In this document: one piece after another, positions 49,770 through 51,628 of the stretch
Layout of the letters: every line of letters starts with the position of its first letter
Numbering within the stretch: the first letter of the stretch is position 1
Notes under the pieces: generated by a model
Databases searched by the model: none
Told to the model about the DNA's origin: nothing
Seen by the model: the letters and a program-made list of their open reading frames with translations, nothing else
DNA from: Burkholderia vietnamiensis LMG 10929
Lineage (GTDB): Bacteria; Pseudomonadota; Gammaproteobacteria; Burkholderiales; Burkholderiaceae
NCBI RefSeq assembly: GCF_000959445.1
Contig: NZ_CP009631.1
Location: 124,001-188,000, forward strand
Reading direction: 5' to 3'
DNA: 64,000 nt
Program-made: the position numbers and the translations under genes

Positions 49770-50111
49770 ATGATGAAACAAGGACTTATGCCCATTTTCG
49801 CGGCCGCCCTGCTGGCGGCCGCCGTCCCCGCGAGCGCCGCCCAGCAGGCCTGCGAGGCCAAGCTCGCCGCACTCGACGCGCGCATCGCCGACGCGCGCGA
49901 ATCCCATACCGAGGAACGCGTCGCCCGCCTGCGCGCGGTGCGCGAGCGCGTACGCCATTTCTGCGCACACGAACAGGGCGACGTTTCGGCCAGCGACGCC
50001 CAGGCAACGCCGACGCAGCCGACGCAGCCGACGCAGCCGACGCAGCCGACGCAGCCGACCAGCACGCCGGCACGGCCGGCGCCGCGGCCGGCGGCGAGGC
50101 AGCCCGTCTGA
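49770..50111 (+). CDS. DUF1090-like small periplasmic protein with a PTQ repeat
   Basis: A 113-residue protein with a signal peptide (cleavage near ASA-AQQ, residue 24). The mature part, QQACEAKLAALDARIADARESHTEERVARLRAVRERVRHFC, resembles the DUF1090/YqjC family of small periplasmic proteins: a helical hairpin between two cysteines. The C-terminal third is a low-complexity tail containing five exact copies of ACGCAGCCG (TQP) and then Pro/Ala-rich sequence. Two tandem ATGs at 49770/49773 are possible starts. Function unknown. Confidence 0.75.
   Translation: MMKQGLMPIFAAALLAAAVPASAAQQACEAKLAALDARIADARESHTEERVARLRAVRERVRHFCAHEQGDVSASDAQATPTQPTQPTQPTQPTQPTSTPARPAPRPAARQPV
50013..50057 (+). repeat. 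Five tandem copies of ACGCAGCCG
   Basis: Five identical 9-bp units inside the DUF1090-like gene, encoding (Thr-Gln-Pro)5. Unit length is a multiple of three, so copy-number change would alter tail length without shifting the frame. Confidence 0.95.
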
Positions 50112-50305: not shown

Positions 50306-50336
50306 GAAAAAAAGCCCGAACGTTTGGTTCGGGCTT
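50306..50336 (-). terminator. Intrinsic terminator of the candidate small RNA
   Basis: On the minus strand AAGCCCGAAC and GTTCGGGCTT form a 10-bp stem with a 5-nt loop, followed by seven T residues. No minus-strand coding gene ends near it. Confidence 0.88.
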
Positions 50337-50397
50337 AATCCACCTTTGGAGGAGGGTGGAGGAGACATTCGGAGGTTGCCGCAGCGCGACAACCAAT
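50306..50397 (-). ncRNA. Candidate small regulatory RNA with two anti-Shine-Dalgarno motifs
   Basis: A roughly 92-nt transcript is predicted on the minus strand from an A at about 50397 to the T run near 50306. Three parts are visible: a 5' hairpin (50374-50394; 9-bp stem with a 3-nt loop), an unpaired pyrimidine-rich stretch with two CTCCTCC copies (50348-50354 and 50358-50364 in plus coordinates), and an intrinsic terminator. CTCCTCC is complementary to the Shine-Dalgarno sequence, so base pairing with many ribosome binding sites and blocking of translation is the likely mode. Anti-SD sRNAs have been reported in Burkholderia and other proteobacteria; whether this is one of those already named was not checked. 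Its neighbours, a DUF1090 gene and osmC, are on the other strand. Confidence 0.75.
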
Positions 50398-50404
50398 GGA
50401 GCTC

Positions 50405-50433
50405 ATTATACGAATGCCCCTCCGACTTCACAA
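50405..50433 (-). promoter_or_regulatory. Sigma-70 promoter of the candidate small RNA
   Basis: On the minus strand TTGTGA (50433-50428), a 17-base spacer and a perfect TATAAT (50410-50405). The start point expected 7-8 bases later is the A at 50397. Confidence 0.8.
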
Positions 50434-50723: not shown

Positions 50724-51146
50724 ATGGAATGCAAAGTAAGCTGGATGGGTCAGGACGGGATGGCGTTTTCGGCCCAGACCGGAAGCGGGCACCTCGTCGC
50801 GATGGACGGCGCGCCGGAAGGCGGCGGACATAACCTCGCTCCGCGCCCGATGGAAATGGTGCTGGTCGGCACCGGCGGCTGCACTGCGTACGACGTCGTG
50901 CTGATCCTGAAGAAGAGCCGCCAGGAAGTCACCGGCTGCTCGGTCACGCTGAAGGCCGAGCGCGCAAGCGAGGACCCGAAGGTGTTCACGAAGGTCCACT
51001 TCCACTTCACCGTCACGGGCCGCAACCTGAACCCGGCCACGGTCGAGCGCGCGATCAACCTCTCGCACGACAAATACTGCTCCGCGTCGATCATGATCGC
51101 GAAGACGGCCGAGCTCACGCATTCGTTCGACATCGTCGCCGACTAA
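50724..51146 (+). CDS. OsmC-family peroxiredoxin-like protein
   Basis: A 140-residue OsmC/YhfA-type protein; the family reduces organic hydroperoxides with a conserved Cys pair. Here the two cysteines are C53 in GGCTAYDVVLILKK and C72 in TGCSVTLKAER. The YhfA-like subgroup often has uncertain peroxidase activity. The ATG at 50724 follows CTGGAG. TACAAT at 50678-50683 is a likely -10 box. It shares a terminator with rnpB, which is encoded on the opposite strand. Confidence 0.9.
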   Translation: MECKVSWMGQDGMAFSAQTGSGHLVAMDGAPEGGGHNLAPRPMEMVLVGTGGCTAYDVVLILKKSRQEVTGCSVTLKAERASEDPKVFTKVHFHFTVTGRNLNPATVERAINLSHDKYCSASIMIAKTAELTHSFDIVAD

Positions 51147-51204: not shown

Positions 51205-51219
51205 TGCATTCGAACGGCA

Positions 51220-51628
<409 letters not shown>

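Follow-up and report, generated by a model that had tools for sequence, protein, structure and literature searches.

RF02278, the "Betaproteobacteria toxic sRNA" family of Rfam, is marked by a double hairpin, CU-rich unpaired sites and a terminator, and is called toxic because an excess of the RNA slows growth. Its member ncS27, a bdh-type double-hairpin RNA of Burkholderia cenocepacia J2315, is encoded on the minus strand between BCAL3348a and BCAL3349, in the orientation -> <- -> (PMC4603805, in the part available to us), and has a mapped length of 92 nt (PMC5688073, Table 1); PMC5688073 lists BCAL3348 as encoding a ribosomal protein, and the processing motif of ncS27 is given as CGA|AUG in the accessible part of PMC7377471. 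Levels of ncS27 rise 9.7-fold in biofilm, 2.4-fold in stationary phase, 3.9-fold under starvation and 4.3-fold in glucose medium, and its overexpression attenuates growth while silencing increases growth (PMC5688073). According to a review available to us in part, ncS27 affects the use of phenylalanine, tyrosine, glycerol and galactose, with tyrosine catabolism as a reported target, and for two infection models the available part of PMC12013268 counts ncS03 and ncS27 among the "core detrimental fitness genes". Another RNA of this kind, ncS62, lies near cepI (PMC5688073). In Bordetella, the available part of PMC11722255 describes S17S as an RNase E product that binds Hfq and represses via pairing with ribosome binding sites (RBSs), reports 92 genes derepressed without S17, and remarks on the homology of S17 to RF02278.

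The RNA gene described here belongs to RF02278 and is the orthologue of ncS27. The preliminary description of this DNA had suspected a Burkholderia sRNA known under another name, and this is what it is: the RNA has been described in relatives, in which it acts as a brake on growth and on the use of nutrients. The analysis thus places a known growth and carbon-use regulator, together with its paralogues, in this genome.

The RNA gene and its predicted fold

The window, that is, the whole 64-kb stretch of DNA analysed, contains the genes for L13 and S9 (minus strand), a DUF1090-like gene (49770-50111, plus strand; Pfam score 23.9 bits, just below the cut-off of 24.4), the RNA gene (minus strand) and osmC (50724-51146, plus strand; OsmC score 65.7 bits), in that order. 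Sequence and fold support the earlier proposal of a self-contained sRNA on the minus strand, opposite to both neighbours; promoter, three hairpins and terminator all lie within 50433-50306. The DUF1090-like gene carries a 9-base tandem repeat of 6.2 copies (50009-50063, plus strand) that encodes a Thr-Gln-Pro run, and a class A RNase P RNA (51215-51626, minus strand, 290.5 bits) lies just past osmC.

A promoter scan predicted a sigma-70-type promoter, TTGTGA-N17-TATAAT, at 50405..50433 on the minus strand, with TTGTGA at 50433-50428 and the TATAAT of the preliminary description at 50410-50405, 17 nt apart; promoter-like sites in 2 kb numbered two (the other at 49609-49580), against 0.2 expected from shuffles. 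The predicted primary transcript of 92 nt (CAUUGG...UUUUUUU; 50307..50398, minus strand), its ends set from the sequence and from ncS27, would start with CAUUGG at 50398, six bases past the promoter, and end at 50307 with the Rho-independent terminator (50307..50336, minus strand), whose stem-loop spans 50336-50312 and is followed by a T run. Because the scanned region held six terminator-like sites against 2.8 expected, the terminator alone is weak evidence; its compensatory changes among relatives are given below.

Folded as a whole, the RNA from 50400 to 50304 reached -38.9 kcal/mol (z -5.04), and none of 200 shuffles did as well. Three hairpins are predicted: a 9-bp leader hairpin, one with the 10-nt loop CUCCUCCAAA, and the terminator. 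The leader hairpin, GGUUGUCGC-GCU-GCGGCAACC (50394-50374, minus strand), bears out the 5' hairpin of the preliminary description and is missing from the Rfam model. It is followed by a predicted processing site, CGA|AUG, at 50369/50368, cleavage at which would free a short form beginning with UGUCUCCU (Site 1, 50360..50367), the complement of AGGAGACA. The next hairpin pairs UCCACC (50360-50355) with GGUGGA (50344-50339), and its loop, 50354-50345, forms Site 2. Unpaired probabilities leave UGUCUCC free and UCCACC paired; the second CUCCUCC copy lies inside the loop, and only the CUCC of the first copy lies outside the stem. Hence both anti-Shine-Dalgarno (anti-SD) copies proposed earlier are there, but not the single unpaired stretch, CUCCUCCACCCUCCUCC, in which they had been placed, since this 17-nt CU stretch has a hairpin arm mid-way. 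CTCCTCC occurs twice on the two strands of the window, both times in the RNA gene and 10 nt apart. Close pairs of this kind averaged 0.06 in 100 first-order Markov windows (maximum 1), and single copies were commoner there, at 5.92 on average.

Family membership and conservation of the locus

The RF02278 covariance model matched in full (cmscan; model positions 1-64 of 64; 50306..50367, minus strand) with 73.1 bits against a gathering score of 50, and the structural traits of the family were found in both the fold and the model alignment. The anti-hemB family RF02837 reached only 26.2 bits against a cut-off of 49.5, a weak match to the same terminator half, and was rejected. The orthology with ncS27 is based on strand, gene order, length and processing motif: the first two match at this locus, the predicted ends (50398-50307) give the 92 nt of ncS27, and its CGA|AUG motif is present. 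Burkholderia loci L036-L045 and L076 align closely with the RNA over its full length.

Of 150 genomes of the family, 137 had an RF02278 match, which exceeded the cut-off in 133; matches were also found in 86 of 130 genomes sampled from the order (52 over) and in 83 of 274 sampled from the class, where 80 were sub-cut-off and the three over it were this genome and two of its order; none of 14 control genomes had a match. This genome (6.93 Mb, four contigs) has five matches, four of them over the cut-off. The fifth (L005:1501-1569, 42.5 bits, sub-cut-off) begins with CGUCUCCUCC and has a promoter-like site 6 nt before it. Near a further copy (L004) lies an open reading frame that we take to encode an AHL synthase, and hpd, which has a AGGAGACA site, lies some 15-16 kb from another copy (G000:C3:552543-568363), an arrangement also seen in genomes G011 and G049.

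We then compared osmC loci obtained from an OsmC scan of named genomes, using the best 80 of at least 580. A core pattern was found antisense upstream of osmC in 59 of these 80; use of the pattern to pick the 59 fixes some of their conservation by construction. The 59 comprise all 55 best-ranked loci (L036-L090; Burkholderia, Paraburkholderia, Caballeronia, Pandoraea, Trinickia and Cupriavidus) and four more from Cupriavidus/Ralstonia. The pattern was not found upstream of osmC in the remaining 21 of the 80, mostly from Massilia, Janthinobacterium, Rugamonas and Duganella; a looser pattern returned the same 59 and L100, which differs in sequence and was left out. L13 stands on the far side of the RNA in 58 of the 59 loci. 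A DUF1090-like gene lies between L13 and the RNA in nine of the 59, all Burkholderia by title.

Three types of 5' end occur among the 59 loci. A leader of about 30 nt is present in 46, of which a script identified 44 and inspection by eye added L063 and L077; all 46 have a promoter-like site at the matching place, with the -10 element 35-40 nt before GTCTCC, or 48 nt in L067. Five loci (L064, L065, L069, L070 and L082, from four Caballeronia and Candidatus Paraburkholderia calva) lack the leader hairpin and have a -10 element where the short form would start, TATACT lying 7 nt before GTCTCC in four of them and TACACT, under the scan threshold, at the matching place in L082; the corresponding distance in the paralogues of this genome is 6-7 nt. 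The other eight loci, from Cupriavidus/Ralstonia, have a leader of about 100-120 nt, with TATAAT 104-126 nt upstream.

Terminator pairs show compensatory changes, one pair being 25 times G-C and 22 times A-U, and another 39 times A-U, five times G-C and three times G-U. The anti-SD hairpin shows almost no covariation in the alignment, and because this stem hardly varies, covariation speaks neither for nor against it. On the MAFFT alignment (A1) the leader hairpin was missing from the RNAalifold structure, since leaders of unequal length were misaligned; folded alone, each leader formed a hairpin (47 of 47 rows), while in full-length folds it was lost in L063 and altered in shape in L059, L067 and L080. 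A script that took each leader's own fold as its anchor counted pairs among 32 distinct leaders: all 32 paired in the two outer columns and 22-28 in the five inner ones, counts that lean to pairing and leave non-pairs in the inner columns.

An extended ribosome binding site complementary to Site 1

We called 441 genes by a simple script in 800 kb of this genome, 362 of them with a Shine-Dalgarno (SD) sequence, and searched the last 25 nt before each start for perfect complements of each 7-mer that the RNA contains, 87 in all. Complements stood before at least eight starts for just two of them, UGUCUCC and GUCUCCU, with 15 upstream regions each of the 441 and none in coding controls. ACA was the commonest triplet after GGAG (15 of 162) and likewise after AGGAG (10 of 58), but not after GGAGG (1 of 30) or GAGG (1 of 94), and AGGAGACA, the complement of UGUCUCCU, was the commonest GGAG context among the 441 genes. 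The RNA has anti-SD motifs as first proposed, but many RBSs of the genome match its free 5' end UGUCUCCU and not the CUCCUCC repeat as such.

Across the whole genome, AGGAGACA-N2-8-ATG occurs 53 times, and 50 of these sites head open reading frames of at least 60 aa, compared to 29 of 37 for the control pattern AGGAGAAC (p=0.03). By Pfam name and our own grouping into classes, 15 of the 50 concern transport (eight MFS, four binding proteins, one ABC permease, one porin and one OmpW); others include four aldehyde dehydrogenases, hydroxyphenylpyruvate dioxygenase, mannitol dehydrogenase, a glyoxylate-carboligase-like TPP enzyme and E1/transketolase pairs, while L160 and L179 gave no Pfam family. 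Among the 29 AGGAGAAC frames, three concern transport, one of them MFS. MFS genes are enriched over random genes (8/50 versus 2/140, Fisher p=0.0004) and not significantly so over the AGGAGAAC control (8/50 versus 1/29, p=0.09), against which all transport genes together gave p=0.04. Aldehyde dehydrogenases gave p=0.04 against the random background, taken as at most 2/140 because the family is absent from the 25 families listed for it. Upstream of hpd, GGAGACA was counted by eye in 18 of the 27 assessable loci among 30 (this genome included), 11 of them with the full AGGAGACA; the rest of the upstream region differs.

In the order sample, the 52 RF02278 carriers exceeded the 78 other genomes in their count of AGGAGACA-N2-8-ATG relative to two permuted controls (p=1.2e-7 and 1.1e-5 over 130 genomes, kinship ignored), and the difference persisted at the level of families (22 versus 29; p=0.0024 and 0.01). 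The pair of control patterns showed no difference between carriers and non-carriers (p=0.12), with a weak correlation with bit score among carriers (rho -0.31, p=0.025). Eleven genomes had at least 20 sites and a count above twice the mean control, and every one of them is an RF02278 carrier (p=2e-5 by draw); the genome studied here, with 53 sites against controls of 25 and 37, is outside this group. Of 143 class-sample genomes, compared with one control, four passed a similar rule; two belong to the order, and the other two, G174 (49 versus 21) and G213 (20 versus 9), lie outside it and have no listed RF02278 match.

We tentatively suggest that the 5' ends UGUCUCCU of RF02278 RNAs read AGGAGACA as a code, an extended RBS that carrier lineages have propagated to tens of genes for uptake and catabolism, such that the regulon could be listed from an 8-mer, and that a fixed core of about 61 nt is reached at one syntenic locus by three routes: direct start, trimming of a leader of about 30 nt, or trimming of a leader of about 100-120 nt. 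This seems to us a serious possibility, somewhat short of an even chance. A phylogenetic coincidence, in which an RBS habit and the RNA are both common to related Burkholderiales without any interaction, has a comparably substantial claim that we would also put a little below even. The sampled families are related to one another, G174 and G213 show the excess outside the order, and the null control pair gave its own correlation with bit score, all of which favour coincidence; the carrier difference, on the other hand, is seen against both permuted controls and again between families, while the null pair does not differ, and the genes involved are of the kinds reported for ncS27 in the accessible part of the literature. 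If the code is real, sequence alone could suffice to list, for any carrier genome, the targets of an RNA family widespread in betaproteobacteria, and the co-evolution of the RNA with the ribosome binding sites it regulates would be directly testable. Neither GGAGACA nor AGGAGACA was found as an RBS pattern in the literature searched, which did not cover the main ncS27 paper, and this is no proof of unpublished status; judged from sequence, what may be new is the 8-mer code together with the three 5'-end routes, the RNA itself being known.

Proposed mode of action and likeness to known systems

The gene is very probably that of a trans-acting RF02278 sRNA, orthologous to ncS27, that represses by covering RBSs. 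In this reading, a sigma-70 promoter would give rise to a 92-nt RNA, with start and end placed as in ncS27, that ends at its own terminator; a nuclease (RNase E in the Bordetella relative) would cut the leader hairpin off at CGA|AUG, leaving a stable double-hairpin RNA of about 61 nt that starts with UGUCUCCU. This 5' end would pair, presumably with Hfq, with the extended SD sequence AGGAGACA, the CUCCUCC of the loop would serve as a second anti-SD site, and a set of genes for transporters and catabolic enzymes would be translated less when growth slows. Most likely the RNA acts by masking ribosome start sites on the mRNAs of genes for uptake and breakdown, with a predicted target set that rests on one 8-mer. 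The preliminary description had spoken of a broad translational repressor; repression is supported, with "broad" meaning tens of genes, as the 53 sites and the 92 genes derepressed without S17 in Bordetella indicate, and not all mRNAs.

The two CUCCUCC copies, which we take to resemble the 3' end of 16S rRNA, could instead suggest a generic decoy with no chosen targets, blocking the majority of mRNAs or the ribosome itself. Toxicity upon overexpression of family members in E. coli (PMC4603805, PMC5688073, in the parts available to us) would suit such a decoy, but the matches in this genome peak at UGUCUCC and GUCUCCU, with no other 7-mer reaching eight genes, and the available part of the review describes growth as attenuated on some substrates with others unaffected; we regard a decoy as unlikely. 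The neighbours of the RNA offer a further candidate, action in cis on osmC or the DUF1090 gene, to which its antisense position and its place upstream of osmC in 59 of the best 80 loci lend some appeal. However, more than 300 nt lie between the end of the RNA and the osmC start, transcription of the RNA leads away from that gene, the paralogues of the RNA adjoin other genes, and the DUF1090 gene, present in nine of the 59 loci, is missing in 50, so that cis action on the neighbours was rejected as very improbable. Least probable of all is a type I toxin or small-peptide gene, with growth inhibited by a peptide that the RNA would encode. The name of the family speaks of toxicity and an ATG does stand at the processing site in this sequence (AUGUCUCC...), but many relatives, among them many Paraburkholderia-type loci, lack an ATG ahead of UCUCC and read CGCTGTCTCC, and it is also missing in the five leaderless loci; a peptide gene was rejected as the start codon is not conserved.

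An RBS-covering repressor of this kind has several described counterparts. By description only, the RNA is likened to the NmsR RNAs of Neisseria meningitidis, in which two CU-rich unpaired sites also complement the RBSs of metabolic genes (PMC5688073), whereas the NmsR RNAs are tandem copies with TCA-cycle targets. The likeness to S17/S17S of Bordetella pertussis extends to a core with Site 1 and Site 2, a leader that is processed off, and RBS pairing; S17 differs in its location (between BP3151 and coq7, as opposed to L13/DUF1090 and osmC), in its leader (about 123 nt versus about 30 nt) and, in the available part of its description, in being without bdhR1-like toxicity in E. coli (PMC11722255). 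Within the family, ncS03, ncS05, ncS62 and the Herbaspirillum RNAs Hsnc59/63/86/107 have the same double hairpin, CU-rich sites and terminator, and the osmC-locus copy is set apart from the four other copies in its own genome by its leader hairpin of about 30 nt, those four having a -10 element 6-7 nt before the core. Compared on gene order, strand, length and motif, the RNA showed no difference from ncS27, with which it shares the Rfam family, a minus-strand place near a ribosomal protein gene, a length of 92 nt and CGA|AUG, and the two are closely alike in fold z-score (-5.1 for ncS27 and -5.04 here).
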